This document shows, piece after piece, positions 30,034 through 46,850 of a DNA stretch of 64,000 nucleotides (positions are counted from its first letter, which is position 1; every line of letters starts with the position of its first letter). The position numbers were made by a program, and so were the translations under genes. The stretch lies in NCBI RefSeq assembly GCF_017348915.1, contig NZ_CP071383.1, positions 558,001 through 622,000 on the forward strand, written 5' to 3'. The stretch comes from Leclercia pneumoniae. GTDB lineage: Bacteria > Pseudomonadota > Gammaproteobacteria > Enterobacterales > Enterobacteriaceae. The notes beneath the pieces were generated by a model, which did not search any database, had not been told where the DNA came from, and saw only the letters and a program-made list of their open reading frames with translations.

Positions 30034-30123
30034 TTGCCTCCCCCCCGTTGATGGGTAAAATAGCCGCAATTTTTCGTATTCATCATGCGTGGCGCTTCGC
30101 CGTGCTTACTTAGAAGATTAATT

Positions 30124-31713
30124 ATGACGTTGTCTCCTTATTTGCAGGAGGTGGCCAAGCGCCGCACTTTTGCCATTATTTCTCACCCGGATGCCGGTAA
30201 AACCACCATCACCGAAAAGGTGCTGCTGTTCGGACAGGCGATCCAGACCGCCGGTACCGTAAAAGGTCGCGGCTCTAGCCAGCATGCAAAATCTGACTGG
30301 ATGGAGATGGAAAAGCAGCGTGGTATCTCTATTACCACCTCCGTGATGCAGTTCCCCTATCACGACTGCCTGGTCAACCTGCTGGACACCCCGGGCCACG
30401 AAGACTTCTCCGAAGATACTTACCGTACTCTGACGGCGGTGGACTGCTGTCTGATGGTGATCGACGCCGCGAAAGGTGTTGAAGACAGGACCCGTAAGCT
30501 GATGGAAGTGACCCGTCTGCGCGATACGCCGATCCTTACTTTCATGAACAAACTCGACCGTGACATCCGTGATCCGATGGAGCTGATGGATGAAGTGGAG
30601 AACGAGCTGAAGATCGCCTGTGCGCCTATCACCTGGCCGATTGGCTGCGGGAAGCTGTTCAAAGGGGTGTATCACCTCTATAAAGACGAAACCTACCTCT
30701 ATCAGACCGGTAAAGGCCACACCATCCAGGAAGTCCGTATCGTGAAGGGGCTGGATAACCCGGATCTGGACGCGGCGGTTGGCGAAGAGTTGGCAGCGCA
30801 GCTGCGCGATGAGCTGGAGCTGGTCAAAGGTGCTTCTCACGAGTTCGATAAAGAGCTGTTCCTGAGCGGGGATATCACCCCGGTCTTCTTTGGTACCGCG
30901 CTGGGTAACTTTGGCGTAGACCATATGCTCGACGGCCTGGTGGAGTGGGCGCCGAAGCCGATGCCACGTAAAACCGACACCCGTGAAGTGGAAGCGCAGG
31001 AGGAGAAATTCACCGGCTTCGTATTCAAAATTCAGGCCAACATGGATCCGAAACACCGTGACCGCGTCGCCTTTATGCGCGTGGTGTCCGGCAAGTACGA
31101 AAAGGGCATGAAACTGCGCCAGGTACGTATCGGTAAAGACGTGGTGATCTCCGACGCGCTGACCTTCATGGCGGGCGACCGTTCGCATGTAGAAGAGGCG
31201 TATCCGGGTGACATCATTGGTCTGCACAACCACGGTACTATCCAGATTGGCGATACCTTCACCCAGGGTGAAATGATGAAGTTCACCGGTATTCCGAACT
31301 TCGCTCCGGAACTGTTCCGCCGTATTCGTCTGCGCGATCCGCTGAAGCAGAAACAACTGCTCAAAGGGCTGGTCCAGCTCTCCGAAGAGGGTGCGGTACA
31401 GGTATTCCGCCCTATCGCCAACAACGATCTGATCGTAGGGGCGGTGGGTGTACTGCAGTTCGACGTGGTGGTTGCCCGTCTGAAGAGCGAGTACAACGTG
31501 GAAGCGATTTACGAATCGGTCAACGTCGCGACCGCCCGTTGGGTAGAATGTGCCGATGTGAAGAAATTCGAAGAGTTCAAGCGCAAAAACGAAGTTCAAC
31601 TGGCGCTGGATGGAGGTGATAACCTCACCTATATCGCGCCAACTATGGTGAACCTGAACCTCACTCAAGAACGTTACCCTGACGTACAGTTCCGCAAAAC
31701 CCGCGAGCACTAA
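30124..31713 (+). CDS. prfC: PrfC, peptide chain release factor 3
   Basis: 529-residue translational GTPase that recycles RF1 and RF2 from the ribosome. G1 is [10 protein letters not shown]3 DTPGHEDF and G4 NKLD, followed by the beta-barrel domains II and III. ATG 30124 gives [17 protein letters not shown], identical to the E. coli N-terminus and the same length. An in-frame upstream ATG at 30085 lacks a ribosome site. A perfect hairpin follows the stop. Confidence 0.97.
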
Positions 31714-31721
31714 TCCCCTCT

Positions 31722-31747
31722 CAGAGCACGGCTGTCGCCGTGCTCTG
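31722..31747 (+). terminator. Terminator-like hairpin after prfC
   Basis: 11-bp perfect stem CAGAGCACGGC/GCCGTGCTCTG with loop TGTC, 8 nt past the stop codon. The tail CTTAATTCC is only moderately T-rich. Confidence 0.7.
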
Positions 31748-32017
31748 CTTAATTCCCTGCCTTATTAACTCCTTGCGGAATGTTCTTAAATCACCGCGAT
31801 TTGCTTTTGGTTGTTCATTTTTTCCTCGATTCTGAAAGCGGCGTTAAAATTGTGATCTATATTTAACTCAGTGTTTAACACCGGGTGTGGATGAAAGCTC
31901 TGTTCAATGCGTGTTGATAAGTCTCTCATCCTCACCCTGTGTTCTCTCACAATATTAAAGACTGAATCTAAGGGATATTCGTCGCTCGAATAACGAGTAG
32001 ATAACAGGAGTACATCG
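31748..32017 (+). promoter_or_regulatory. osmY upstream region
   Basis: 270 nt without a gene between the prfC hairpin and osmY. In E. coli this region carries the sigma-S-dependent, osmotically induced osmY promoter with Lrp, CRP and IHF sites. Here the segment is AT-rich, but I cannot fix the -10 with confidence by eye. Confidence 0.4.
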
Positions 32018-32635
32018 ATGAATATGAAAAGTGTGAAGATTTCAAAAACCCTGCTGGCCGTCATGTTGGGCAGTGCCCTGGTAAGTGGTTCCGCGCTGGC
32101 GGAAGAGACCACCACGGACAAGGCGCAAAACAGCGCGAGCAGCGCAGGTGAAAAAATCGATAGCTCTATGAATAAAGTCGGTAATTTCATGGATGACAGT
32201 GCTATCACGGCTAAAGTTAAAGCGGCATTGGTGGATCACGATAATATCAAGAGCACCGATATCTCCGTGAAAACGGAAAAAGCTGTCGTCACCCTGAGTG
32301 GCTTCGTTGAAAGCCAGGCACAAGCCGAACAGGCTGTGAAAGTGGCGAAAGAGGTTGAGGGTGTCTCCTCAGTCAGCGACAAACTGCATGTACGTGATGG
32401 TAAAGAGCAGGGCGTTAAAGGCTATGCAGGCGATACTGCAACCACCAGCGAAATCAAAGCTAAACTGTTAGCAGATGACATCGTTCCGTCACGTAAAGTG
32501 AAAGTTGAAACTACCGATGGCGTGGTTCAGCTCTCCGGTACGGTTGACTCTCAGGCGCAGGTAGACCGCGCTGAAAGCATCGCGAAAGCGGTTGATGGCG
32601 TGAAAAGCGTTAAAAACGACCTGAAATCGAAATAA
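32018..32635 (+). CDS. osmY: OsmY, periplasmic two-BON-domain stress chaperone
   Basis: 205-residue periplasmic protein induced by osmotic stress and stationary phase. A signal peptide (about residues 1-29, ending SGSALAEE) is followed by two BON domains, roughly 57-125 and 136-204, each with the VxLSGxVxSQAQ strand-turn ([24 protein letters not shown]). In E. coli it acts as a chaperone for some outer-membrane and autotransporter proteins. ATG 32018 follows ACAGGAG. The linker after the signal is a little longer than in E. coli. Confidence 0.96.
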
Positions 32636-32650
32636 AAAATCTAAATTCGC

Positions 32651-32672
32651 CCTTCTGGCTGAGGCCAGAAGG
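32651..32672 (+). terminator. Hairpin after osmY
   Basis: 9-bp stem CCTTCTGGC/GCCAGAAGG with loop TGAG, 15 nt after the stop. There is no T-run afterwards, so it may stabilise the 3' end or terminate only partly ahead of ytjA. Confidence 0.5.
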
Positions 32673-32761
32673 CGAGATCAGAATTACACCTGTAGATATC
32701 GCGTGAGCATCTGAGCGCTCAGATTTAGCGGTCGACATTAACTATGGTAAAGGAGAGGCTT

Positions 32762-32923
32762 ATGTTTCGTTGGGGCATTATATTTCTGGTTATCGCGTTA
32801 ATTGCCGCCGCTCTTGGTTTTGGCGGACTGGCGGGTACCGCGGCTGGCGCGGCGAAAATTGTCTTCGTTGTCGGTATTGTTCTGTTCCTGGTCAGCCTGT
32901 TCACCGGACGACGCCGTCCGTAG
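32762..32923 (+). CDS. ytjA: YtjA, small DUF1328 membrane protein
   Basis: 53-residue inner-membrane protein ([20 protein letters not shown], ..., FTGRRRP) with two hydrophobic helices joined by a Gly/Ala-rich turn and a basic C-terminus. It is almost identical to E. coli YtjA, whose function is unknown. ATG 32762 follows AAAGGAGAGG. Downstream of osmY and followed by a clear terminator, it may be co-expressed under stress. Confidence 0.93.
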
Positions 32924-32962
32924 CAACAGCTAATCCGTAGCACGGATATACCGGAGCATCTT

Positions 32963-32989
32963 AAAAGCCAGTCCTTGCGACTGGCTTTT
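32963..32989 (+). terminator. Rho-independent terminator of ytjA
   Basis: 11-bp stem AAAAGCCAGTC/GACTGGCTTTT, loop CTTGC. The A/T ends make it usable in both directions. Confidence 0.85.
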
Positions 32990-33059
32990 CCCGTTTGAGG
33001 AACAGGCCACGTTTGCGTTACTGTGTCCTGACACAATAATTAAAAACAGGAAGGCAGAG

Positions 33060-34130
33060 GTGGGTCAGCGAATTCCCGTTACGCTCGGCAATATTGCGCC
33101 GCTGGCGATAAAACCCTTTCGCCCGGGGCAGATAGCATTAGTCTGCGAAGGCGGGGGGCAGCGTGGCATCTTCACAGCAGGGGTGCTGGATGAGTTTATG
33201 CGCGCGCAATTTAACCCCTTCGATCTCTATTTCGGCACCTCTGCGGGTGCGCAAAATCTCTCTGCCTATGTCTGTAATCAGCCCGGTTATGCCCGCAAGG
33301 TCATTATGCGCTACACCACCTCGCGGGAGTTTTTTGACCCGGTACGTTTTGTGCGGGGAGGAAATCTGATCGATCTCGACTGGCTACTGGACTCTACCTC
33401 TCGTCAAATGCCGCTGGCGATGGACACCGCCGCGAGGCTGTTTGATACCGGTAAGTCTTTCTGGATGTGCGCAAGTCGCAGCGATGACTATACGCCGGGC
33501 TATTTTTCCCCGCTGAAAGAGAACTGGCTGGATATTATCCGCGCCTCGAGCGCCATACCGGGTTTCTATCGCAATGGCGCCACGCTGGATGGCATTAACT
33601 ATCTGGACGGCGGCGTTAGCGATGCCATTCCGGTGCAGGAGGCGGCCCGGCGTGGAGCACAGACAATCGTGGTGATCCGCACGGTTCCCTCCCAGATGTA
33701 CTACACCCCCCAGTGGTTTAAGCGCATGGAGCGCTGGCTTGGGGAGAGCAGCCTGCAGCCGCTGATGAATCTCGTACATCATCATGAGATGACTTATCAC
33801 GCGATCCAGCAATTTATCGATAAGCCGCCGGGAAAGGTGCGCGTCATCGAAATCTATCCGCCCAGGCCTTTAAGCAGTATGGCGCTGGGCAGTCGTCTGC
33901 CCGCGCTGCGGGAAGATTACAAAACAGGGCGCCAGTGTGGGCGTTATTTTCTGGCTACCCTCGGCAAGCTGCTGGCGGAAAGTCCACCGCTGCGCCGCCA
34001 TACGCGGCTTATCCCCCCGGCTACGGTGGTGGTACCGCCTGCAACCGTGGCCAACGATGCCGTTACCACGCCGCTGGTTGATATTCCCCAGGCGAACGAT
34101 ACGCTGTTTGATAACGAGGATTTAGCGTGA
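33060..34130 (+). CDS. yjjU: YjjU, patatin-like phospholipase family protein
   Basis: 356-residue patatin-fold hydrolase. The oxyanion loop is CEGGGQRGIF (residues 29-38), the nucleophile S61 lies in GTSAG and the dyad aspartate D183 in YLDGG. The substrate is unknown. It starts at GTG 33060 after AGGCAGAG, giving MGQRIPVTLGNIAPL as in E. coli. It overlaps yjjV by 4 nt. The C-terminal 50 residues are Pro/Thr-rich and variable. Confidence 0.92.
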   Translation: MGQRIPVTLGNIAPLAIKPFRPGQIALVCEGGGQRGIFTAGVLDEFMRAQFNPFDLYFGTSAGAQNLSAYVCNQPGYARKVIMRYTTSREFFDPVRFVRGGNLIDLDWLLDSTSRQMPLAMDTAARLFDTGKSFWMCASRSDDYTPGYFSPLKENWLDIIRASSAIPGFYRNGATLDGINYLDGGVSDAIPVQEAARRGAQTIVVIRTVPSQMYYTPQWFKRMERWLGESSLQPLMNLVHHHEMTYHAIQQFIDKPPGKVRVIEIYPPRPLSSMALGSRLPALREDYKTGRQCGRYFLATLGKLLAESPPLRRHTRLIPPATVVVPPATVANDAVTTPLVDIPQANDTLFDNEDLA

Positions 34131-34909
34131 GTTACCGCTTTGTAGACACCCATTGCCATTTCGATTTTCCCCCGTTTACTGGCGATGAGACGGCCAGCAT
34201 CGAGAGGGCGGCAAAGGTGGGCGTGGAGGCGATCATCGTGCCCGCTATTCAGGCAGCGCGCTTTGAGCAGGTATTGCAATTAGTAGGCGGGCATCCGGCT
34301 CTGTATGCTGCCCTCGGCCTGCATCCTATCGTGATCGAAACCCATCAGGAGCGCGATCTGGAGGCGCTGGAAGCGGCGCTTCAGGCCAGGCCTGAAAAGC
34401 TGGTGGCCATCGGCGAGATCGGCCTCGATCTGTATCGCGCTGATCCCCAGTTTGCGCGCCAGGAAGCGATCCTCGAGGCCCAGTTAAAACTGGCAAAACG
34501 CTATGAGCTACCGGTGATTCTTCACTCCCGCCGTACTCACGATAAGCTGGCTATGCACCTTAAGCGGCAGGATCTTCCGCGTACCGGGGTGGTGCACGGC
34601 TTTGCCGGCAGCCTGCAGCAGGCGCAGCGGTTTATCGACATGGGTTACAAAATTGGCGTCGGCGGCACCATTACCTACCCGCGTGCCAGTAAAACGCGTG
34701 ATGTGATGGCGCAGCTGCCACTCTCCGCGCTATTGCTGGAGACCGATGCGCCTGACATGCCGCTTAACGGTTTTCAGGGGCAACCGAATCGCCCCGAGCA
34801 GGCGGCCCGGGTCTTCGCCACTCTCTGCGAACTGCGAAATGAACCCCCAGAGGCGATCGCCGGGGCGCTGCTGGATAATACCCGCGCGCTCTTTGATCTG
34901 CCGCTTTAG
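34127..34909 (+). CDS. yjjV: YjjV, TatD-family metal-dependent hydrolase
   Basis: 260-residue TIM-barrel hydrolase of the TatD DNase family. Metal ligands are the DTHCHFD start (H9, H11), GEIGLDLY, HSRRTHD, HGFAG and ETDAPDMP. The likely activity is 3'-5' exonuclease or phosphoesterase, as in other TatD proteins. GTG start overlaps the yjjU stop (GTGA). In E. coli yjjW and yjjI follow; here the sulfatase module follows instead. Confidence 0.92.
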   Translation: MSYRFVDTHCHFDFPPFTGDETASIERAAKVGVEAIIVPAIQAARFEQVLQLVGGHPALYAALGLHPIVIETHQERDLEALEAALQARPEKLVAIGEIGLDLYRADPQFARQEAILEAQLKLAKRYELPVILHSRRTHDKLAMHLKRQDLPRTGVVHGFAGSLQQAQRFIDMGYKIGVGGTITYPRASKTRDVMAQLPLSALLLETDAPDMPLNGFQGQPNRPEQAARVFATLCELRNEPPEAIAGALLDNTRALFDLPL

Positions 34910-35006
34910 AAAGAGTGGTTGCCGTTATACTCATGAGCCTCTTCTGCCTGCGGATGCTGAGGGGGCTGGCGGGTTTACAAGACGATGTTTTTGTTAGCGA
35001 TTGCGT

Positions 35007-35273
35007 TCAATCTCTCAGCCCAGCCGCTAATAATAAGAGCGTGCCAGCCGTCACCACGATCAGAGAAATAAAAGCGTATTTCCCGCGACCAAGCCCGCAA
35101 AAAAGCGATACCGAGCCACCCATCAAGAGTGTGCCTGCGATTGCATAAAGCACTTCTCCATATTTTCCCCAACCCCGCAGACACAACAGCGCAGGAATAA
35201 TCATCGACCAGCCTGTTCTTCGCCAGGAAAGTTCGGTCCTTTCCGGCTGAAGGCCGGGATCGCCAGTCGTCAT
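35007..35273 (-). CDS. DUF202 membrane protein, YidG-like (short)
   Basis: 88-residue membrane protein with the DUF202 N-terminal signature DPGLQPERTELSWRRT followed by about two hydrophobic helices. It resembles E. coli YidG, which is about 120 residues, so this version is shortened at the C-terminus. Its ATG overlaps the stop of the preceding DUF202 gene by 4 nt. It is the last gene of the minus-strand sulfatase operon. DUF202 is also the fold of yeast Vtc1. Its role next to sulfatases is unknown. Confidence 0.75.
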   Translation of the reverse strand: MTTGDPGLQPERTELSWRRTGWSMIIPALLCLRGWGKYGEVLYAIAGTLLMGGSVSLFCGLGRGKYAFISLIVVTAGTLLLLAAGLRD

Positions 35274-35659
35274 GGTTTTCCCTGCCAGAGCAAGATCCCA
35301 AGTGAAACAGAAAGCACAACCATCAAAGCAGAAAGGATTACGAGTGCACGGGTATAAGGTAAATTTGTCGCCAGCCGCATGGCATACTCATTACGTCGCC
35401 AGCGGCGCCATGCCATAAATCCCATCAGGGACGCACTTAGCAGAAGCGTTGTCGAGATAGCTATACGTAACTCTCCGGATGAGAGTTGAGGAGAAAATTG
35501 TTCAATTCCTACGGCGCCAGCCATCAGCGCAAGTGCCGTGCGGATCCAGGCAAGAAAAGTTCGTTCGTTTGCGAGAGTGAAGCGGTAGTCTGGCGTTTTA
35601 CCCGCCAGCCACCATTTACCTCTGGGTCGTACGGACGAGACGTTATCCTGTTGACTCAC
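35270..35659 (-). CDS. DUF202 membrane protein, YidH-like
   Basis: 129 residues with three predicted membrane helices and the motif RFTLANERTFLAWIRTALALM, as in E. coli YidH. It starts at GTG 35659 behind AAAGGA, overlapping the 3' end of the RpiR regulator gene by 17 nt. In E. coli yidG and yidH sit beside the sulfatase gene yidJ and maturase yidF, so the same pairing here is unlikely to be chance. A membrane partner or small-ion transport role is speculative. Confidence 0.8.
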   Translation of the reverse strand: MSQQDNVSSVRPRGKWWLAGKTPDYRFTLANERTFLAWIRTALALMAGAVGIEQFSPQLSSGELRIAISTTLLLSASLMGFMAWRRWRRNEYAMRLATNLPYTRALVILSALMVVLSVSLGILLWQGKP

Positions 35660-36524
35660 GTTTAATCCTTTCTTTAATTAGCAATTCTTTTATCGACAGT
35701 CCGGTTGATGCACTGTCTCGTAGGTTATGGCGTGTCACTTCAGTACATAAGAATTCAATGATGAATAGCTGCGAAATACGCGTAGCAATGGAGTCGCCCT
35801 GATAGGGGCCTGCACTGCCGCAGGTTAATAGCCAGGTTTCTGCAAGTTCAGTCAGCGGTGACTGGGGGCTATGCGTGATTGCCAGACGCTGTGCTCCCGC
35901 TTTCTTTGCCAGCCTGAATGCGTTGACCACTTCCGGCGTTTCACCGGAATGGGAGAAGGCGATGACCAGATCGTTGGGCTTCAGGTTGGCAAGCTTTAGC
36001 GTCATGGTGAAGCGATCGGTATAGGCTTCAGAATCAATACCTTGACGGTTCATTTTGTCTCTCGCTTCCATGGCTGAAAGCCCTGAAGCGCCAAATCCGA
36101 CAAACAGAACGCGGTTGGCCGTCAATAAGCGCTCCACCACTGGATTAACGACTTTCATATCAAGCAGGCCGATAGTCTCATTGAGGGTGGTTGCCACTGT
36201 CATTGAGATCTTCTGCGCTACGTCATTGCGCGTGTCATCCAGAAAAATATCCGGTGAGGTGGGCAAAAGCTGGTCGGTCTCTTCCAGCAACTCGCGCTTC
36301 AGGGCTGATTTCAGTTCCAGCAACCCGGTATAACCGATCTTCTTACAAAAACGCACGATCGTGGCTTCGCTGACTGAGATAGCTTCTGCCAGTTTACGCA
36401 CCGGCATCTGTGCCACCGCTGCGGGCTGCTCAAGAATAAAGCGGGCAATATGTTGGTCAGTTTCACTCAATCCCGACATGATATTGCTGATATAAACCCG
36501 AACATTCTCGCGATTAGCGCTCAT
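35643..36524 (-). CDS. MurR/RpiR-family regulator of the sulfatase-PTS operon
   Basis: 293-residue regulator with an N-terminal RpiR helix-turn-helix (AEAISVSEATIVRFCKKIGY, about residues 45-64) and a C-terminal SIS sugar-phosphate-binding domain (VGFGASG, FSHSGETPEVV). Such proteins sense phosphosugars. I start at ATG 36524 (MSANRENVRVY), preceded by AGGTGTAGCG. An in-frame start at 36596 would overlap the epimerase gene and adds no conserved sequence. Encoded inside the operon it probably controls, with twin palindromes at 40790-40836 as candidate sites. Confidence 0.85.
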   Translation of the reverse strand: MSANRENVRVYISNIMSGLSETDQHIARFILEQPAAVAQMPVRKLAEAISVSEATIVRFCKKIGYTGLLELKSALKRELLEETDQLLPTSPDIFLDDTRNDVAQKISMTVATTLNETIGLLDMKVVNPVVERLLTANRVLFVGFGASGLSAMEARDKMNRQGIDSEAYTDRFTMTLKLANLKPNDLVIAFSHSGETPEVVNAFRLAKKAGAQRLAITHSPQSPLTELAETWLLTCGSAGPYQGDSIATRISQLFIIEFLCTEVTRHNLRDSASTGLSIKELLIKERIKRESTG

Positions 36525-36579
36525 CGCTACACCTGACCTTAAGCATGATGAATAAGCGGATATTTTGGCAATACCCCGC

Positions 36580-37446
36580 TCATGCGTCCACCGCAAAACG
36601 TAGCTTCACTCTGAATGCCTCGTTTTCATTCGGCTTAAGCTGTCGTATCCCACGCTTGTGAGTTATATCCCCTTTGAATCCTGGGCAATCGGTCGTACCC
36701 GCCAGGGGTTCAATGCAGAGTAAATCGGCACCGGGAACTCCCCACAGTGCCAGCCAATCTTGTGTGCCCGTCTCCAGCGACATCACCACGTTACCTTCAG
36801 GATTACGGATAAAAATCTGCCGCTGCTGGCAGTTCCCGAAGTAAACGGCCCCTTCGCGAAATGAGGACGGCTCAAGCGGAAAGGTCCCGGTGGTCTGGAA
36901 TTGCTCTTCTGTGATTAGCGTTCTGTTCCGGGTAAGGAATGGCCCCCGCACCGGATTATCTGCAAACTCAACATGCCAGCCAGGCTGGCTGGCTATCGGT
37001 AAGGCAAAGCCCGGATGCCAGCCAATGGAGTACCAGAAAGGGCGATCGTCATCATTAAAAATCTGCTGCGATACGCAAATCCCCTCCCTTTCAAGAGTAA
37101 CTTCATACCTGATACGCCATCGCCAGGGCCATTGTTTCATTGTTTCGGTCGTTGCCATGGCCTCGAGAAGAACATGGTTGTTACCTTTACTGAGACAGGA
37201 AAATGTCTGGTGACGTAAAAAACCGTGTGGCGCTAAGGCCAGGAAGTGCCCGTTAACCCTGATTCCGCCCTGAACAAGTCCTCCTACAACAGGAAAAAGC
37301 TGTGTGGCGGAATGATTCCAGACGTCAGCTTGTGGTTGCCACAGCCATTCCCCCCCTGTCTGTTTATCACGCAGGCTGCAAAGTTCCCCGCCGAGTGCAT
37401 TGACTGAGACCTGAAAGCGGTCATTGCCAATCGTCCAGACATTCAT
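36580..37446 (-). CDS. Aldose 1-epimerase family protein (LacX-like mutarotase)
   Basis: 288-residue galactose-mutarotase-fold enzyme of the LacX subgroup. Likely catalytic histidines are H74 (APHGFLRHQ) and H144 (GWHPGF), with catalytic glutamate E246 (CIEPLAGTTD) and R78. It interconverts alpha and beta anomers of a free or phosphorylated sugar. It begins 2 nt after the sulfatase stop, so translation is tightly coupled. A mutarotase in a sulfosugar operon has precedent in E. coli yihR, which acts on sulfoquinovose; that enzyme has a different substrate chemistry. Confidence 0.87.
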   Translation of the reverse strand: MNVWTIGNDRFQVSVNALGGELCSLRDKQTGGEWLWQPQADVWNHSATQLFPVVGGLVQGGIRVNGHFLALAPHGFLRHQTFSCLSKGNNHVLLEAMATTETMKQWPWRWRIRYEVTLEREGICVSQQIFNDDDRPFWYSIGWHPGFALPIASQPGWHVEFADNPVRGPFLTRNRTLITEEQFQTTGTFPLEPSSFREGAVYFGNCQQRQIFIRNPEGNVVMSLETGTQDWLALWGVPGADLLCIEPLAGTTDCPGFKGDITHKRGIRQLKPNENEAFRVKLRFAVDA

Positions 37447-37448
37447 GG

Positions 37449-39209
37449 TTATTCCGTCCTCAACAGCAACCGGGCCTGATAAACCAGCGCCTTATGACGA
37501 TCGCCCGTAAAGCAGGCATCTATGAGCGCAAACAGATCCTGTTCAACCAACACATGCCCTGCCGGGAAATGGGTGAGTATGGCTTCGGCAGCCAGACCCT
37601 GTTCCTTTGCCGCAGTAAGGATGAAGCGCAATGCTTCTTCCACACCATGATGTTCACAGCGATACTCTTTGCCAGTCCATAAGGTCTGCTTTGCCCAGCG
37701 CTCGGCAAAGGCACGTTCTCGCTCAGGCATTAATGGGTCTAACTCAAAACGCGTGTAAAGCTCAGAGGGTGCGTCATGACGCCGCATCTCTTCAGCAATG
37801 GCGCTGGCAAACTGAAGCGTCCGTTTCTCGTCGTGCAGAGAGTGCATCTGTCGGGGATCGTTTTTCAGATCGAAGAACTTATCTCCAAAACGCCATGGGT
37901 TAAGGTAGCCAAAGGTTGCAGGGATCTGCATGACCTGAGCCCCCAGGGTGAAATCGAAACCGGGATGGATACGGATATCAGTGAGTTCGCTAGTTTTAAA
38001 CATGCTGTCGATACGCGTTGGCATCAGGGTATATTCGTACAGGTTCTCCTTGCCGGCCTCGCGAGGGCATCGCATGTAAACGTAATTGCCATCAGTAATG
38101 TTGATGTGCCCACCGAAATAGCCAAACATTGCATAATCCCTGATCGGGGTATCATCTTGTACGGCAGGAAGAAGAGGTTTACCGGTCATAGATGGTGGAC
38201 GGGTAACGTCAAAGTAGTCCAGCAGGGTAGCCGGGATATCCACGGTTTGCGCCAGCGCGCTACGGCGTACGCCCTCTGCCTTACAGCGCGGATCGCGTAT
38301 AAAGAACGGCGTATTGGCGATTTCATTGTAAACCGGCATGATATTTTTGCCCCACCACTGGTGTTCACCCAGCAGGAAGCCATGATCGGTGCAGACGATA
38401 AATAGGGTATCTTCCCAGAGATTGAGCGCCTTAAGCTTATCCATAACCTGCCCGAGGTAGTCATCACACATTGTGATGAGCGCCTGGTAAAATTTTCGGA
38501 CCTTATCGTCGTCTTTACCGCCTGGCGAACCGCAGTAGTAAGGCACCCAGCCATCGAACTCATCCGGCGTGCAACCGTACTGCGCGAGATATTTTTCGGG
38601 CACAAAGAATGGCTCATGGGGATCGAAACACTCTATTTGCAGGAACCAGTTATCCTGGTGCTGATTCACATCGAGGAACTCCAGGCCAGCGCTGATGGTG
38701 CGATGCGTGAAATGCTCTTCCTGCGTGGGCATTGCGGCACGATTGATAAGATCCTGAGTCATTCGGCCACTGCGGCGACGAAGCGTCTCTTCATCCTCCA
38801 TGCCCTGCCAGTTAATCGCCGGTTTCTCAACCTGACCTTTCCAGCAATCGCCTTCCTGACCCCGGATAAATTCAAAGGTGGAATAACGCGTATGGTAGGT
38901 TGCGCCGCCATCACGCCAGTAATGTTTGTGGTCGGTTACCATATGGGTGTGGACACCGGCCTGCTTCAAAGCCTGAAACGTCGAGAAATCGAAGGGCTCT
39001 ATAGGACCCCAGCTGCGATGAAGGAAATTGTAACGGCCGGTGTGAAGTTCACGCCGGGCAGGCATACAAGGCATGCTGCCAACGTAGAAATTATCAAACT
39101 GTACAGATTCGTTTGCCAGCCGGGTAAAGTTAGGGGTGATGGCATCGCCCCCATAGGGGGCGAGATGGTTACGCGTCAACGTATCAAACATTAACATTAC
39201 AGCTTTCAT
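37449..39209 (-). CDS. Cys-type sulfatase, probably cytoplasmic sulfosugar sulfatase
   Basis: 586-residue alkaline-phosphatase-superfamily sulfatase. The formylglycine motif C-x-P-x-R is C48-M-P-A-R52, preceded by metal ligand D9 (MFDTLTRNHLAPYG). CTDHGFLLGEHQWWGK supplies later metal and substrate residues. There is no signal peptide (MKAVMLMFDTLTRNHLAP), so the enzyme should work in the cytoplasm. The Cys type needs an anaerobic maturase, and one is encoded divergently nearby. It is 14 nt downstream of the EIIBC gene. The substrate is probably a sulfated hexose or hexosamine delivered by that PTS; the exact sugar cannot be told. Confidence 0.88.
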   Translation of the reverse strand: MKAVMLMFDTLTRNHLAPYGGDAITPNFTRLANESVQFDNFYVGSMPCMPARRELHTGRYNFLHRSWGPIEPFDFSTFQALKQAGVHTHMVTDHKHYWRDGGATYHTRYSTFEFIRGQEGDCWKGQVEKPAINWQGMEDEETLRRRSGRMTQDLINRAAMPTQEEHFTHRTISAGLEFLDVNQHQDNWFLQIECFDPHEPFFVPEKYLAQYGCTPDEFDGWVPYYCGSPGGKDDDKVRKFYQALITMCDDYLGQVMDKLKALNLWEDTLFIVCTDHGFLLGEHQWWGKNIMPVYNEIANTPFFIRDPRCKAEGVRRSALAQTVDIPATLLDYFDVTRPPSMTGKPLLPAVQDDTPIRDYAMFGYFGGHINITDGNYVYMRCPREAGKENLYEYTLMPTRIDSMFKTSELTDIRIHPGFDFTLGAQVMQIPATFGYLNPWRFGDKFFDLKNDPRQMHSLHDEKRTLQFASAIAEEMRRHDAPSELYTRFELDPLMPERERAFAERWAKQTLWTGKEYRCEHHGVEEALRFILTAAKEQGLAAEAILTHFPAGHVLVEQDLFALIDACFTGDRHKALVYQARLLLRTE

Positions 39210-39223
39210 AAGACGTCTCTTCT

Positions 39224-40765
39224 TTATGAACCGATAAACTCTTCTACTTCATTCTTAATCAGGGTTACATGCGGGCCGTAGACTACCTGTACCCCCTCTC
39301 CACGGACGAAGGCGCCACGGCTACCTAACTGTTTGAAGGCTTCTACCGTTACCCGCTGCGGATCTTTTACCGTGATGCGCAGGCGCGTAGCGCAGCAGTC
39401 CACATCCACAATATTTTCACGTCCACCTAAAGCCTGAACGATGCCTTCAGCTCTCTCGTTACCGGCAAGCGTGGATGCCGGTTGTTCCTCTTCCGATTCC
39501 TCTTCACGGCCCGGCGTTCTGAGCTGTAACCACTTAATCAACGCGCGGAAGCTGAAGTAGTAGAGACAGAACATGACGAGCCCAAGCGGCAGCATCAGTA
39601 CCCAGTTTGTCTTTGCATTGCCCTGCAGTACACCAAACAACAGGAAGTCAATGAGCCCACCAGAGAAGGTCTGACCGACGGTAATTTGCAGGATATGCGT
39701 CAACATAAACGCCACGCCAGTCAGAACAATATGTACGCCATAGAGCAGTGGCGCACAGAACATGAACGCAAATTCAAGCGGCTCGGTGATACCGGTGACA
39801 AAGGCAGTCAGCGCAGCGGACAGCATCAGGCTGGCGACCTTTTTTTTGTTCTCTGGACGTGCGGAATGGTAAATAGCCAGCGCTGCACCCGGTAAACCAA
39901 ACATAAAGTCGGCGAAGCGGCCCGCCATGAAGCGTGAAACGCCGATGTAATATTGCGTGACAGAGGGATCGGCCAACTGAGCAAAGAAGATTTTCTGCGT
40001 GCCTTGTACTAGCTGCCCGTTGACCATTTGTTCCCCACCTACGCTGGTTAGCCAGAAAGGCAGATAAAACAGGTGATGCAGACCAAGCGGAATGAGGCAT
40101 TTGAGGATCATGCCGTAGATGAGTGTACCGACGTAGCCAGTCTTTTCGACCAGCCCGCCAAGGTGGGTAATGCCTATCTGAATATGCGGCCAGATCCAGA
40201 AAAGAGCCACCCCGAGGAAGATGGCGAAGAAAGAGGTTACGATAGGGACGAAACGTGAACCGCTAAAGAAGGCCAGCAGATTAGGAAGCTGCGTTTTCCC
40301 GAAGCGTTTCTGCACCCAGAACGCCAGGAGCCCACTCAGGATACCTCCCATGACCCCAGTCTGTAAGGTCGTGATACCCATTACGCTTGCCTGACCTGCC
40401 GCCGCCAGATTCTCTGTCGCCAGTGTGCCTGACAGTAACAGTGAGGCATTGATCGCCTTGTTCATCACGATAAAGCACAGCACTGCAGCAAGACCGGCGG
40501 TGCCTTTATCACTTCGGGCCATACCTACGGCTATCCCTACAGCAAACAGCAGGGACAGATTATCGAAGACCACGCTGCCGCATAGCTTCATGACCGTAAA
40601 GATCGCCTGAATAATCTCGCTGTTCAGTACAGGATAGGTAGCTATGGTAACCGGATTAGTGAAAACGCCGCCGAACCCCAGAAGCAGGCCTGCCGCGGGC
40701 AGGACAGCAATCGGCAGCATAAACGATTTACCCAGATTTTGTGCTCCGGCAAACAGTTTGCTCAT
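39224..40765 (-). CDS. PTS EIIBC permease, glucose/N-acetylglucosamine/maltose superfamily
   Basis: 513-residue inner-membrane transporter. The EIIC domain (about 1-415) has roughly ten helices and the signature GITEPLEFAFMF. A Glu-rich linker leads to the EIIB domain (about 435-513) with phospho-cysteine C458 in DVDCCATRLRITV. No EIIA is encoded here, so it likely uses the cell's EIIA-Glc (Crr), as GlcNAc-less family members do. First gene of the minus-strand operon. Its position before a sulfatase suggests import and phosphorylation of a sulfated sugar. Confidence 0.88.
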   Translation of the reverse strand: MSKLFAGAQNLGKSFMLPIAVLPAAGLLLGFGGVFTNPVTIATYPVLNSEIIQAIFTVMKLCGSVVFDNLSLLFAVGIAVGMARSDKGTAGLAAVLCFIVMNKAINASLLLSGTLATENLAAAGQASVMGITTLQTGVMGGILSGLLAFWVQKRFGKTQLPNLLAFFSGSRFVPIVTSFFAIFLGVALFWIWPHIQIGITHLGGLVEKTGYVGTLIYGMILKCLIPLGLHHLFYLPFWLTSVGGEQMVNGQLVQGTQKIFFAQLADPSVTQYYIGVSRFMAGRFADFMFGLPGAALAIYHSARPENKKKVASLMLSAALTAFVTGITEPLEFAFMFCAPLLYGVHIVLTGVAFMLTHILQITVGQTFSGGLIDFLLFGVLQGNAKTNWVLMLPLGLVMFCLYYFSFRALIKWLQLRTPGREEESEEEQPASTLAGNERAEGIVQALGGRENIVDVDCCATRLRITVKDPQRVTVEAFKQLGSRGAFVRGEGVQVVYGPHVTLIKNEVEEFIGS

Positions 40766-40789
40766 AAAGACCCCTGATGTTGGTGTTAT

Positions 40790-40836
40790 GAAGTTTATAT
40801 TTCATGTTATATTTGTTTTTGAGAAATATATGTTTC
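40790..40836. promoter_or_regulatory. Twin palindromic operator candidate between EIIBC and the sulfatase maturase
   Basis: Two related 14-nt imperfect palindromes, GAAGTTTATATTTC (40790-40803) and GAAATATATGTTTC (40823-40836), lie 33 nt apart centre to centre, about three helical turns. The reverse complement of the first agrees with the second at 11 of 14 positions. They occupy the 156-nt divergent gap. A dimeric RpiR-type regulator is the obvious candidate to bind. Confidence 0.55.
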
Positions 40837-40921
40837 GATCCTTTTTGTACAAAGTCAAAACACGTCAGCAAAAGAGTGAACTCTGTCACTAAATTTCCCG
40901 GCGTGATTTTCAGGAGTGCAT

Positions 40922-42145
40922 ATGAACAAACCCTTTCACCTTATGGCTAAGTCAGTCAGTTTTCAGTGCAATATCGCCTGCGACTACTGTTTTTATCTGG
41001 AGAAAGAAGAGGGAACACTCAAACCTCGTAAAGCTGCCCGTCATATGGACGATAGCACTCTGGAGGCTTATGTCCGGCAGTACATCGAATCAAACCCAGC
41101 CCCGGAAGTAGAGTTTACCTGGCAGGGTGGGGAGCCCACCCTTGCCGGTATCGCCTTTTATCAAAAGGCTCTGGAATTGCAAAAAAAGTTTGCTGGCACG
41201 AAACGCATTACCAACAGTATTCAGACTAACGGCGTGCTAATTGACGAGCAGTGGGCTGAATTTTTGGCGAGAAATCGCTTCCTGGTGGGACTCTCCATAG
41301 ACGGGCCGGCATGGCTACACGATCGGTATCGTAAGACTCGCAGCCAGCAATCGGTCTTTGATAAGGTGCTACGCGCTATGAGGCTGCTACAAAAGTATCG
41401 CGTTGAGGTGAATGTACTCACAGTCGTGAACAATGTAACGGCCGAGCACCCGCAAGAAATCTACGATTTCCTGACTCAGGAGTTGAAAGCGGAATTTGTT
41501 CAATTCATTCCTGCCGTAGAACAACGCGCTGTTGATAAAAAATACGGTGAATTATTGTATCCGCAGACGCTCAAAGGTTCTGTCACCGAGTGGTCGGTCT
41601 CAGGTGAACAATACGGACAATTTATGAAGGGGGTGTTTGATCGCTGGGTGCGAAAGGATGTCGGTCGGGTGTACGTTCAGATGTTTGACAGCGCTTTGGC
41701 TGCCTGGCTTGGAGAGAAACCGTCGTTGTGTGTCATGCAGTCATCGTGCGGGTTCGGTCTGGTGGTAGAGCAAAACGGTGATGTCTACAGCTGCGACCAC
41801 TATGTCTATCCTGAACATCGGCTGGGAAACGTCAGGCGAGATAATCTGGCCAGGATGGTCGCCAGTAAACAACAGCGCAAATTTGGTCTGGCAAAAACAG
41901 AGGTTAGTGCAGAGTGTATGCGTTGTGAGTGGCGCTTTGCCTGCCATGGCGGCTGCCCAAAACACCGTATCCATAAGAGTGGAGAGCGCTGGCACAATCA
42001 TCTTTGCGCGGGCTATAAAGCCATTTTTAGCCACATGGATCCTTACATGCGGTATATGGCTGATCAAATAAAAGCTCAGCAACCACCGGCCAGGGTTATG
42101 CAGGTTATTGATTCGATTGGCGCCTCTGAATCCATATCGAAATAA
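40922..42145 (+). CDS. Anaerobic sulfatase-maturating enzyme (radical SAM, SPASM)
   Basis: 407-residue radical-SAM enzyme that oxidises the sulfatase active-site Cys to formylglycine without oxygen. The C-x3-C-x2-C cluster is C16, C20, C23 (FQCNIACDYCFY). The C-terminal SPASM region supplies ligands for two more 4Fe-4S clusters (SSCGFG, YSCDHYVYPEHRLGN, CMRCEWRFACHGGCPKHR, LCAGYKAIF). ATG 40922 follows CAGGAG; a GTG 6 nt upstream overlaps the ribosome site and is unlikely. Transcribed divergently from the operon that encodes its probable substrate at 37449-39209. Confidence 0.92.
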   Translation: MNKPFHLMAKSVSFQCNIACDYCFYLEKEEGTLKPRKAARHMDDSTLEAYVRQYIESNPAPEVEFTWQGGEPTLAGIAFYQKALELQKKFAGTKRITNSIQTNGVLIDEQWAEFLARNRFLVGLSIDGPAWLHDRYRKTRSQQSVFDKVLRAMRLLQKYRVEVNVLTVVNNVTAEHPQEIYDFLTQELKAEFVQFIPAVEQRAVDKKYGELLYPQTLKGSVTEWSVSGEQYGQFMKGVFDRWVRKDVGRVYVQMFDSALAAWLGEKPSLCVMQSSCGFGLVVEQNGDVYSCDHYVYPEHRLGNVRRDNLARMVASKQQRKFGLAKTEVSAECMRCEWRFACHGGCPKHRIHKSGERWHNHLCAGYKAIFSHMDPYMRYMADQIKAQQPPARVMQVIDSIGASESISK

Positions 42146-42364
42146 TCAATTCTGACGAAGAGGAGCGTCTCACTCTTATCTCTGTAATGTCACGGAAGAG
42201 GTTATTTTAACGTGCCGGGTCGGTCACCTTTGTGGATAAAATAACAGCCCCTTCATTTGTGTAGCCCGTCGGGAATAGTCTCTTTACACCTGCGAACACG
42301 AACGACCAGTAACACGGCATCGACTACTTCAACGTCCCGACTACATGGCAACGCGTCCCGAATA

Positions 42365-42601
42365 TTACCCGCTTGCTCTCAGCGAGACGGGTTCCATAAC
42401 GTTCATTTTATAGCCAGTCGGGCCGCTCACCTTTTCCAGAACGCTATTATCAATAAAGCCAGCGTGTGCGTAGAGATCAACACTGCGCACCGGTGATTTT
42501 AGGGTGCAAAGAACAGCCGTACGACAGCGAGTTATAACAAATGACGGCACTGGCGTGTTTCTTGTGACTATTTTACCATTTTTCGACATCAGGGGTGTCA
42601 T
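42365..42601 (-). pseudogene. Possible gene remnant, unidentified
   Basis: A 78-residue frame with protein-like composition (SVDLYAHAGFIDNSVLEKVS, GPTGYKMNVMEPVSL) lacks a ribosome site and has a stop just upstream. A second minus-strand frame, ending near 42540, reads TEDNYRQNAANV then, after a stop, RRDAGNHLCVASK. This could be a frameshifted fragment of one gene. I do not recognise the family, and chance is possible. Confidence 0.2.
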
Positions 42602-42829
42602 GTTTGCTGGCTACACAAAGATGGTTGCCCGCATCCCGTCGTCAAACATTCGCGGCGTTCTGCCGATAATTATCTTCTGTCAAAGTGGACGTTAATGGCT
42701 GGGTGTCCGCTTCTTACCGTATTTTTCTCAGATGTAAGGTCTGTTTTCTCTACCGATCTTCATACCTATAAAAGCTTTCGACAGCATTAGAACGGTACAA
42801 GGTTTAAGACGACGATAGATTGTTTTTTG

Positions 42830-42845
42830 TGTTATAATTATAACA
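42830..42845. promoter_or_regulatory. Perfect 16-nt palindrome TGTTATAATTATAACA
   Basis: TGTTATAATTATAACA is fully self-complementary and contains a TATAAT -10-like hexamer on both strands. It could be an operator overlapping a promoter. No gene starts close by on either strand: the nearest are deoC, 440 nt to the right, and the end of the maturase gene to the left. Confidence 0.4.
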
Positions 42846-43140
42846 TTCTGTTCGCCGTCGTTTACCAGCATGTTAGATGGAAGAGGCTGCTAAAAGCCAA
42901 TGAGCCGCGAGAAGGCATAGTCAAAGCCTCCTTCTTCCGGTTCCAGCTATTTTGGCCGTTATAGAAGGCTTGTCACACTTAGCTGGCAACGTTATTGCAG
43001 GCCACTGAATAGGATGAGGGGCATAACTGCATCCTTAATCTGACTGTCTGGCATGAGCCACCTGGAGAGAGCGTGTGGCGGCTGGTTTTTAAAAACTACG
43101 CGTCTGCCTGACGTCGTCCTCAGCCGTCAGGGTGAGATTG

Positions 43141-43242
43141 TTTGAACTGGATCTCATTACAGTAATGCAAATTTGTATGCAGTTTTCATTAACTGTGATG
43201 AATGTCGAAGTGTATATGCGGGCGGATGTTAGAATATTCACA
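43141..43242 (+). promoter_or_regulatory. deoP2 control region (CRP, CytR, DeoR sites)
   Basis: The layout follows E. coli deoP2. An upstream CRP-like site occupies 43141-43159 (TTTGAACTGGATCTCATTA). A CytR interval and a second CRP-like site (TGTGATGAATGTCGAAGTG, 43194-43212) follow. The DeoR operator TGTTAGAATATTCACA (43227-43242) overlaps the -10-like TAGAAT (43230-43235). CRP activates, CytR and DeoR repress in E. coli. Sites were recognised by resemblance. Confidence 0.75.
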
Positions 43243-43286
43243 GACCCGCAAGGTGAAATTTTACGGCAAAGCCGTTGGAGACTGAT

Positions 43287-44066
43287 ATGACCGATTTAAC
43301 CGCAAGCAGCCTGCGCGCGTTGAAACTGATGGATCTGACTACCCTGAATGACGACGACACTAATGAAAAAGTGATCGCCCTGTGTCATCAGGCCAAAACC
43401 CCGGTGGGGACTACCGCTGCCGTCTGTATCTATCCACGTTTTATCCCGATTGCGCGTAAAACGCTGAAAGAGCAGGGCACGCCGGAAGTTCGCATAGCGA
43501 CCGTTACCAACTTCCCGCACGGGAACGACGACATTGAGATCGCGCTGGCCGAAACCCGCGCCGCCATTGCCTACGGTGCTGACGAAGTGGATGTGGTCTT
43601 CCCGTATCGTGCGCTGATTGCTGGCAACGAGCAGGTCGGTTTTGACCTGGTGAAAGCCTGTAAAGAGGCCTGTGCCGCGGCAAACGTGCTGCTGAAAGTG
43701 ATCATCGAAACCGGCGAGCTGAAAGAAGAGGCGCTGATTCGTAAAGCGTCTGAAATCGCGATCAAAGCGGGCGCCGATTTCATCAAAACCTCTACCGGTA
43801 AAGTGCCGGTGAACGCAACCCCGGAAAGCGCGCGCATCATGATGGAAGTGATCCGCGACATGGGTGTGGAAAAAACCGTCGGCTTCAAACCGGCTGGTGG
43901 CGTGCGTACCGCAGAAGACGCCCAGCAGTTCCTCGCCATTGCCGATGAACTCTTTGGCGCAGAGTGGGCGGATTCCCGTCACTACCGTTTCGGCGCATCC
44001 AGCCTGCTGGCAAGCCTGCTGAAAGCGCTGGGTCATGGCGACGGTAAGAGCGCCAGCAGCTACTAA
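43287..44066 (+). CDS. deoC: DeoC, deoxyribose-phosphate aldolase
   Basis: 259-residue class I aldolase that splits 2-deoxyribose-5-phosphate into glyceraldehyde-3-phosphate and acetaldehyde. Schiff-base K167 (IKTSTGK), proton-relay K201 (GFKPAGG) and D102 are at E. coli positions. I start at ATG 43287 after TTGGAGACTGAT; an in-frame ATG 12 nt upstream is less well placed. First gene of deoCABD. Confidence 0.97.
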
Positions 44067-44075
44067 GTATGAATT

Positions 44076-44101
44076 GCCGGGTGACGCGTTGCGCTCCCGG
44101 C
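44076..44101. repeat. REP-like hairpin between deoC and deoA
   Basis: GCCGGG (44076-44081) pairs with CCCGGC (44096-44101) around a GC-rich centre, the usual enterobacterial REP form. Such elements between cistrons can buffer upstream mRNA from decay. Confidence 0.65.
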
Positions 44102-44120
44102 CTATTTTCGGGAGGTTACC

Positions 44121-45443
44121 GTGTTTCTCGCACAAGAAATTATTCGTAAAAAACGTGATGGTCAGGCCTTAAGCGACGAAGAGATCCGCTTCTTTATCAA
44201 CGGCATTCGCGATAACACCATCTCTGAAGGGCAGATTGCCGCCCTCGCGATGACCATCTTCTTCCACGATATGTCTATGCCTGAGCGCGTGTCGCTGACC
44301 ATGGCGATGCGGGATTCAGGAACGGTGCTGGACTGGAAAAGTCTTAATCTTAACGGCCCGATCGTCGATAAACATTCCACCGGCGGAGTCGGTGACGTCA
44401 CCTCCCTGATGCTGGGCCCGATGGTGGCAGCCTGCGGCGGTTACATCCCGATGATCTCCGGGCGTGGCCTGGGTCATACCGGCGGTACGCTCGACAAACT
44501 GGAAGCCATTCCAGGCTTCGATATCTTCCCGGATGACAATCGCTTCCGCGATATTATTAAAGACGTTGGCGTGGCGATTATTGGCCAGACCAGTTCGCTT
44601 GCGCCAGCGGACAAGCGTTTCTACGCCACCCGCGACATCACCGCCACCGTGGACTCCATCCCGCTGATTACCGCCTCTATTCTGGCGAAAAAGCTGGCGG
44701 AAGGGCTGGATGCGCTGGTGATGGACGTGAAGGTGGGTAGCGGCGCCTTTATGCCAACCTATGAGCTCTCTGAAGCGCTTGCCGAAGCGATCGTTGGCGT
44801 CTCCAACGGCGCGGGCGTGCGTACCACCGCACTGCTGACCGATATGAACCAGGTGCTGGCCTCCAGCGCGGGTAACGCCGTCGAAGTGCGTGAAGCGGTG
44901 CAGTTCCTGACCGGAGAGTACCGTAACTCACGTCTGCTCGACGTGACCATGGCGCTGTGCGTCGAGATGTTAATCTCCGGCAAGCTTGCCAAAGACGATG
45001 CAGAGGCGCGGGCGAAGCTGCAGGCGGTGCTGGACAACGGCAAAGCGGCCGAGATCTTTGGCCGGATGGTTGCCGCGCAAAAAGGGCCAACCGACTTCGT
45101 CGAAAACTATGCCAAATACCTGCCGACGGCGACGCTCAGCAAAGCCGTGTATGCGGATACCGAAGGCTTCGTCTCAGCGATGGACACCCGCGCGCTTGGC
45201 ATGGCGGTCGTCTCGATGGGTGGCGGTCGCCGTCAGGCCTCGGACACTATTGATTACAGCGTCGGTTTCACCGACATGGCCCGCCTGGGTGACAGCGTTG
45301 ACGGGCAACGTCCGCTGGCGGTGATCCACGCGAAAGATGAAGCCAGCTGGCAGGAAGCGGCGAAGGCGGTGAAAGCGGCAATTTGCCTTGACGATAAAGC
45401 GCCGGAAACCACGCCGACGGTCTATCGCCGTGTCACTGAATAG
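44121..45443 (+). CDS. deoA: DeoA, thymidine phosphorylase
   Basis: 440-residue enzyme that phosphorolyses thymidine and deoxyuridine to base and deoxyribose-1-phosphate. Signature motifs are KHSTGGVGD (phosphate loop) and [20 protein letters not shown] (substrate). It starts at GTG 44121 behind GGGAGGTT, giving [14 protein letters not shown] as in E. coli. Second gene of the operon. Confidence 0.97.
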
Positions 45444-45454
45444 CGGTATACTGA

Positions 45455-46720
<1,266 letters not shown>

Positions 46721-46775
46721 TGTGACAGGGGTGCGGCCTGATGCCGGCACCCCGGCCCTCTCACATAATAAACAA

Positions 46776-46823
46776 GGGTGCGGTCTGATGCCCTCACCCC
46801 AACTCTCTCCTACAGGGAGAGGG
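46776..46823. repeat. Palindromic extragenic repeat (copy 2) between deoB and deoD
   Basis: GGTGCGGTCTGATGCCCTCACCCC followed by CTCTCTCCT-ACA-GGGAGAGGG; the hairpin is slightly degenerate. A related GGTGCGGCCTGATGCC tract lies just upstream (about 46730). One inverted unit of the family seen at 3714-3799. Confidence 0.7.
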
Positions 46824-46850
46824 AAAATCTCAATGAAAAGGAACTGAAAG

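Follow-up and report, generated by a model that had tools for sequence, protein, structure and literature searches.

A putative PTS-sulfatase operon for a sulfated sugar in Leclercia pneumoniae

In the accessible parts of the published accounts, the Streptococcus pneumoniae island SPH1922-SPH1930 comprises phosphotransferase system (PTS) genes, a sulfatase, a sulfatase-modifying enzyme, a TauE exporter and a regulator (PMC3283741, PMC3302838); mutants are attenuated, and no activity is seen on 4-methylumbelliferyl sulfate (PMC3283741). The corresponding part of a review mentions sulfatase and PTS genes in a chondroitin operon of Proteus vulgaris (PMC9067506). Here we analyse a 64,000-nucleotide stretch of Leclercia pneumoniae DNA (NZ_CP071383.1, positions 558,001 to 622,000; hereafter the window). 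At 35007-42145 it holds seven open reading frames (ORFs) – six on the minus strand and one divergent on the plus strand – encoding a PTS transporter (EIIBC), a Cys-type sulfatase, a LacX-like mutarotase, an RpiR-type regulator, two DUF202 membrane proteins and a sulfatase maturase. The ORFs and their Pfam and NCBIfam matches confirm the families assigned in a preliminary description of this DNA.

That description had called the system possibly undescribed. No paper on the exact operon or its substrate was found in the open-access literature of PubMed Central, a collection in which subscription papers are mostly outside scope. PTS-sulfatase islands are already known, as in S. pneumoniae, where the island includes a maturase and TauE; it is the exact seven-gene operon that is new in the literature searched. 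Our principal conclusion, which we regard as probable from the sequence comparisons below, is that a sulfated sugar would be imported and phosphorylated by the PTS and then desulfated as the sugar-6-phosphate.

Residues of the sulfatase and of the transporter

The sulfatase matches PF00884 with 113.2 bits (cut-off 25), and its C-x-P-x-R motif (C48-M-P-A-R52) is invariant in the aligned sulfatases; a PF16347 (SGSH_C) domain is also present. D9, which we take to be a metal ligand of the family, is invariant and leaves a signal peptide no room: the enzyme is thus predicted to be cytoplasmic, in support of the earlier proposal of cytoplasmic desulfation. For comparison, 117 sulfatases were used, each with its gene neighbours: the window protein, relatives from species genomes (the best 80 of at least 582), and sets of 23 and 13 loci. 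The transporters beside them are PTS, GPH symporter, ABC and other types. K95 and R99, which lie in the motif DHKHYWRDGG of the window protein, occur together in 27 of the 117 (hereafter KR sulfatases). An EIIC gene lies within 2 kb of all 27 KR sulfatases, compared to 7 of the 90 others, and these KR-linked EIICs fall into three types: glucose-type, EIIB-first and related to BglF, and a separate EIIC without EIIB domain (L075, PF02378), which we take to be of the Lac/Cel type. The earlier suggestion that a sulfated sugar is imported by the PTS is supported. LacX, as best-hit neighbour, accompanies 15 of the 27 KR sulfatases and none of the 90 others (a fused copy in L034 is left out).

In a quick tree of 113 rows all 27 KR sequences group in one clade (SH-aLRT 99), with five fixed differences – Q95K, E99R, D129K, K208L and Y218F – whose charges sum to +4; a residue count with a slightly different denominator gives six, adding V203. 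Among 81 non-KR rows (the non-KR set minus a second PTS group of five and four distant rows, L170, L172, L173 and L178, the latter excluded also from the tree and from the charge count), residue 99 is E in 76, and residue 95 is Q in 45, Y in 13 and K in one (L105). Position 129 carries D or E in 54 of these rows, and position 208, L in the KR clade, carries K or R in 69. These figures include near-copies: L046 and L089 (the latter a Cedecea sulfonylureivorans locus) are identical, and L033/L034, L036/L038, L049/L054, L107/L128 and L175/L177 are close. The KR pattern was found by inspection and then checked on six loci met later, where an EIIC lies 29-323 bases away in four of four KR cases and in neither of two non-KR cases, a check weakened by the use of KR sulfatases as queries and by L285 sharing a genome with L064. 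Given their charge, conservation and genomic context, K95, R99 and K129 are read here as a putative phosphate grip for a sugar-6-phosphate.

KR was rejected as a marker of PTS linkage in general, because seven PTS-linked sulfatases (L170, L171, L174-L178) lack it: so far the rule runs one way, in that KR implies PTS and PTS does not require KR. Five of the seven (L171, L174-L177) make up the second PTS group, with S or W at residue 95 and E at 99; three of these belong to genomes using genetic code 4. The sulfatase frames of those three (L175, L176 and L177) need TGA read as Trp and encode cytosolic sulfatases with PTS EII genes next to them; FGE and TauE are also present in two of the genomes and a GH1 glycosidase in one.

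The EIIBC belongs to the glucose family (PF02378 and PF00367, with the EIIB Cys458 and the His and Glu of the O6 site conserved), and its best NCBIfam match, TIGR02002, scores 552.1 bits, below the cut-off of 591.8 for the glucose-specific equivalog. Its EIIA partner is probably a stand-alone EIIA-Glc-like protein of the same genome: a 172-amino-acid open frame at G000:C1:3089162 matches EIIA_1. In PtsG, according to the accessible portion of the structural report, E202, R203, K257, T297 and E298 contact OH-2, OH-3 and OH-4, and OH-6 is held by E298 with H211/H212 (PMC11393339). At positions 202, 203, 257, 297, 298, 211 and 212 the window EIIBC and all 15 orthologues have L, K, F, T, E, H and H. 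As a control, nine EIIBCs scoring above the GlcB cut-off (five from Bacillota, four from Vibrionaceae) were aligned: R203 is kept in all nine and E202 in eight (L253 has R). Positions 215 and 257, at one time read as signs of a changed sugar side, vary among these GlcB proteins, which tells against that use of them, and it was withdrawn. Within the same EIIC alignment (from which L267 was left out as improperly aligned) R203 to K is exclusive to the 16 window-type proteins, but L202 is shared by five other EIIBCs that score below the cut-off (L257, L261, L263, L264, L269), which tells against the weight of that change; position 202 is N in NagE and in two NagE-like proteins.

Since the OH-6 contacts of PtsG are kept and the C2/C3 contacts are changed, a sulfate at position 2 or 3, or on nitrogen, suits the site better than one at position 6, and the same pattern speaks against the 6-O-sulfates that the preliminary description had listed among its test sugars. 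On this basis O6 of the sugar should be free and phosphorylated, with C2/C3 the likeliest point of departure from glucose. This makes a glucose-like sugar with a 2-, 3- or N-sulfate a lead, not an assignment. Near some Gram-positive KR loci (L062, L063, L286) a GH1 or GH4 glycosidase is found, which points to glucoside-type sugars there.

The DUF202 pair as a candidate sulfate exit

The two DUF202 proteins (88 and 129 amino acids) share an invariant ERT motif, and one aligns with YidH and the other with YidG of Escherichia coli, proteins that the K-12 annotation lists merely as inner membrane or DUF202 proteins. Searched against solved structures in the PDB, the pair's joint profile gives significant matches to VTC1 only (E 7e-5 to 9.3e-5); the next match is a Na+/H+ antiporter subunit (E 0.71). 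The invariant arginine falls on Vtc1 R31 (printed numbering). In the part of the Vtc1 study available, cryo-EM places this residue where the polyphosphate channel is narrowest, and channel mutants lose vacuolar polyphosphate (PMC9911596). Judged by these alignments the two proteins are related to YidG/YidH and, remotely, to the polyphosphate channel VTC1, and they may form the exit for sulfate.

Across the 117 loci, 25 of the 34 PTS-linked sulfatases have a DUF202 or TauE gene within 6 kb, as do 8 of the 83 others (Fisher p 1.6e-11, kinship ignored). For Enterobacterales plus Vibrionaceae the figures are 19/22 and 5/11 (p 0.03). In Bacillota and code-4 genomes 6 of 12 PTS-linked sulfatases, and 1 of 29 others, have a TauE/SafE gene within 6 kb, TauE being assigned by Pfam (PF01925) for L064, L075, L176 and L177 and elsewhere only by a model of our own, itself derived from TauE genes at PTS loci, which counts against the comparison. 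In Gracilibacillus lacisalsi (L285/L064) a TauE gene stands between two PTS-sulfatase operons of one genome.

Among the matches listed, 76 of 198 family genomes have a DUF202 hit. From these, 40 pairs away from the family's sulfatases were picked by hand (the L231 and L240 stretches end at contig ends): for 30 of them the surrounding 6 kb or so contains no sulfatase, and many lie beside emrD. The notion that the pair is strictly sulfatase-bound was therefore rejected; one possible reading is that a sulfatase was lost at the emrD-adjacent orphan pairs. The window's own genome holds such an orphan (L246, G000:C1:11300-23300), a YidH-YidG pair beside emrD with no sulfatase in 12 kb. YidH was also considered, and set aside, as a D-alanine exporter: in the available part of the source, a screen selected YidH and the transport assay was almost unchanged (PMC10299036).

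Proposed pathway and alternative explanations

LacX residues H144 and E246, presumably the catalytic pair of aldose epimerases, are invariant across 16 aligned sequences, the maturase exceeds the TIGR03942 cut-off (505.8 bits against 349.45), and the regulator combines PF01418 with a SIS domain, in line with its earlier description as a phosphosugar-type RpiR protein. The divergent region between the EIIBC and maturase genes (40766-40915) contains two inverted repeats and a CRP-like site. Ten of the 12 aligned regions match box 1 (TGAA-N7-TTTCA) exactly; L042 differs from it at one base, and the L057 region is truncated there. Box 2 (GAAA-N6-TTTC) is likewise exact in 10 of 12, with one mismatch each in L038 and L057. 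The box 1 pattern occurs four times in the window against 0.44 expected, AGTGA-N6-TCACT once against 0.04, and the core GTGA-N6-TCAC is kept in all nine of the 12 regions long enough to include it. RpiR and CRP would be the obvious candidate readers of these sites.

Taken as a whole, the genes suggest an operon for the use of a sulfated hexose as carbon source. The EIIBC, with EIIA-Glc, would import a glucose-like sugar bearing an O- or N-sulfate at C2/C3 and phosphorylate its free 6-OH; LacX, by family, would interconvert the anomers. The sulfatase, activated by the divergent maturase as in other members of that family, would then remove the sulfate from the sugar-6-phosphate. If K95, R99 and K129, whose association with the PTS is described above, do bind phosphate, the sulfatase must act after the PTS step. 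The product would be a central metabolite such as glucose-6-phosphate or glucosamine-6-phosphate, which would account for the absence of further catabolic enzymes from the operon. Sulfate freed in the cytoplasm might leave through the YidG/YidH-type pair, homologous to VTC1 and perhaps an anion channel of that kind, and RpiR would sense the phosphosugar at the divergent boxes, with CRP control. More tentatively, and well short of an even chance, the clamp and the sulfate channel would hold jointly: the clamp would restrict the sulfatase to PTS-made sugar-6-phosphate, the DUF202 pair would be a prokaryotic VTC relative exchangeable with TauE/SafE, and the whole would be a modular pathway of Gram-negative and Gram-positive bacteria. 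If true, sulfatases acting on phosphosugars have a readable sequence signature, the substrate search for PTS-sulfatase operons is narrowed, and YidG and YidH acquire a suggested function in the release of anions such as sulfate.

Several observations weigh against parts of this proposal and are best considered with the alternatives they favour. The same import and desulfation could occur with a sulfatase that takes either form of the sugar, K95, R99 and K129 serving stability or another sugar contact and the linkage being co-inherited. The single origin of the KR clade, as a result of which residues and PTS linkage are not seen changing together repeatedly, and the seven PTS-linked relatives without KR are as this explanation would have it. 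The charge argument is blunted by four nested subclades holding the window, whose charges sum to more (5 to 8, across 32-71 differences), and by the loss of a basic residue in the KR clade itself (K/R208 to L); moreover E. coli YidJ (L055), excluded from the sulfatase comparison as too distant, gives in profile alignment an ambiguous register relative to GKWHLG, which we take to be the canonical sulfate-binding motif of sulfatases. Co-inheritance nevertheless sits poorly with a PTS linkage kept in every KR member, across two phyla and three kinds of EIIC, and with the acid-to-base changes E99R and D129K; we think it possible but rather unlikely. It is less probable again that the substrate is a 6-O-sulfated sugar with its phosphate at another position, or N-sulfated glucosamine originating from fragments of heparin. 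NagE is likewise changed at PtsG E202, and the SGSH_C domain is named after N-sulfoglucosamine sulfohydrolase; SGSH_C is, however, a broad family, and the conserved OH-6 contacts of the EIIC argue against a 6-O-sulfate. N-sulfoglucosamine is in any case compatible with the PTS-then-sulfatase order that we favour. Sulfatases can feed sulfate assimilation, and the operon might serve sulfur rather than carbon supply; with an RpiR-type regulator, a CRP-like site and exit genes that would discard the sulfate, this appears very improbable.

Instead of a sulfate channel, the DUF202 pair could be a scaffold in the membrane, a stress protein or an anion channel of general type, carried along from a yid-like ancestor; the abundance of orphan pairs, including that beside emrD in the window's own genome, favours this alternative. 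Exit genes are not near 75 of the 83 non-PTS relatives; of the loci met later, two of four with KR lack one (L284, and L286 at a contig start), and the non-KR locus L287 has a DUF202 match, which likewise weigh against the sulfate exit. Against it stand the repeated pairing with sulfatases of differing transporters (two kinds of EIIBC, GPH symporters and YidK), the fact that TauE takes the equivalent place in some Gram-positives, and the VTC1 homology with its pore arginine. We would give the scaffold, stress-protein or general-channel alternative close to an even chance.

Locus, distribution and comparison with known systems

Table 1. Features of the operon and its divergent region (window coordinates).
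Feature	Position	Strand	Basis
PTS EIIBC, glucose family, EIIA domain absent	39224..40765	-	PF02378, PF00367
Cys-type sulfatase, predicted cytosolic, K95/R99/K129	37449..39209	-	PF00884, PF16347; C48-M-P-A-R52
LacX-like aldose 1-epimerase (mutarotase)	36580..37446	-	PF01263
RpiR/MurR-type regulator with SIS domain	35643..36596	-	PF01418, PF01380; probable start ATG 36524
YidH-like DUF202 membrane protein	35270..35659	-	PF02656; alignment with E. coli YidH, invariant ERT
YidG-like DUF202 membrane protein	35007..35273	-	PF02656; alignment with E. coli YidG, invariant ERT
Anaerobic sulfatase maturase (radical SAM/SPASM)	40916..42145	+	TIGR03942; probable start ATG 40922
Inverted repeat TGAA-N7-TTTCA, candidate RpiR operator (box 1)	40789..40804		12 orthologous intergenic regions aligned
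Inverted repeat GAAA-N6-TTTC (box 2)	40823..40836		Aligned orthologous intergenic regions
AGTGA-N6-TCACT, CRP-like site	40875..40890		Pattern search and intergenic alignment

The minus-strand genes are closely packed, with gaps of 14 and 2 bases from EIIBC downwards followed by overlaps of 17, 17 and 4 bases. Because the orthologues L036 and L038 are 293 amino acids long, RpiR probably starts at ATG 36524 rather than at TTG 36596, and the LacX-RpiR overlap then turns into a 55-base gap; the likely maturase start is preceded by GGAG. The island lies between yjjV (34127-34909) and deoC (43275), a place occupied by yjjW-yjjI in E. coli K-12. No significant remains of yjjW or yjjI were found in the window, the best being two distant weak yjjI matches (E 0.13 and 0.19). 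G+C is 0.49-0.53 in the island kilobases (35000-41999); of the ten other kilobases within 30000-46999, six have 0.55-0.59 and four are lower. The 1.1 kb between maturase and deoC (42146-43274) holds short ORFs only, with a G+C of 0.46 in 42000-42999. A sigma-70 promoter scan of 34900-43300 found five matches against 7.7 expected by chance.

Sulfatase matches reach 1e-80 or better in 18 of 246 family genomes, and 70-100% identity in 12 of these (own genome included in both counts). At the 11 other loci with 70% or more (L032-L042), EIIBC and sulfatase occur together in all 11, as do LacX and RpiR, in the same gene order, with the DUF202 pair in nine, a full-length maturase in nine and all seven genes in seven. 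In L034 (10611-12413) LacX and RpiR form one 600-amino-acid ORF and are separate in the near-twin L033, and the sulfatase match of L042/L019, with one in-frame TAG, is probably a decaying copy. All seven genes are also found in Kluyvera intermedia (L056), Citrobacter sp. MGH106 (L057), Vibrio hannami (L058), where the DUF202 pair is divergent and the maturase downstream, and L179, which belongs to the same order as the window genome. Counting the window's own genome, sulfatase relatives occur at 1e-140 in 2 of 295 genomes of the order and at 1e-120 in 1 of 274 of the class; the sulfatase is absent from both same-genus genomes of the family scan (G144, G239). A megablast of 34000-43500 against E. 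coli matched 1651 of 5426 complete genomes, none covering 80%; every one of the 20 matches listed is a 4% piece of deoC.

Four loci (L037, L039, L040, L041) share one flanking site, whose flanks we take to be frdB and blc; three (L036, L038, L057) occupy a second, beside mtlA, and the window's site is a third. Because the set is found at differing chromosomal sites it moves as a whole, and the seven genes are thus a mobile unit. A Serratia entomophila plasmid typed as conjugative (L274, NZ_MT039147.1) carries an EIIC-sulfatase-GntR-DUF202-DUF202-maturase operon with a KR sulfatase.

How, then, does the operon compare with described systems? In the accessible text the pneumococcal island likewise combines a PTS, a sulfatase, a sulfatase-modifying enzyme and a regulator, but its EIIA/B/C are of the lactose type and its regulator is a ROK protein, with no mutarotase or DUF202 protein mentioned there; the window operon has no lactose-type EIIC, ROK regulator or TauE. 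The E. coli yih sulfoquinovose pathway handles a sulfur-bearing sugar and includes a mutarotase (YihR), but sulfoquinovose is a C-S sulfonate and the yih annotation holds no sulfatase or PTS gene. VTC shares the DUF202 family and the ERT motif with its pore arginine, whereas the window proteins stand alone, without polymerase or SPX domain (TTM and SPX domains were not found at E up to 0.01).

Among enterobacteria the nearest analogue is, as the preliminary description held, the E. coli yidFGHIJKL locus, with which the operon shares the YidG/YidH pair, a sulfatase and a divergent regulator. It differs in having an EIIBC in place of YidK (which we take to be an SSS-class transporter), RpiR in place of YidL, and LacX; YidJ is only a distant relative (24% identity in profile alignment). 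Relatives of the yid locus carry a full maturase of about 370 amino acids in the slot of YidF, and YidF itself (165 amino acids, L055:3115-3612), although without Pfam match, aligns with the C-terminal part of the window maturase (27%, large gaps; E 2e-16 in a single comparison): from this alignment it looks like a decayed maturase. A further likeness is to the GntR-type PTS-sulfatase operons (L043-L045, L059, L061 and NZ_MT039147.1), which share the KR sulfatase, the DUF202 pair and the maturase, and differ in their EIIB-first, BglF-related EIIBC, in the GntR regulator and in having no LacX match.

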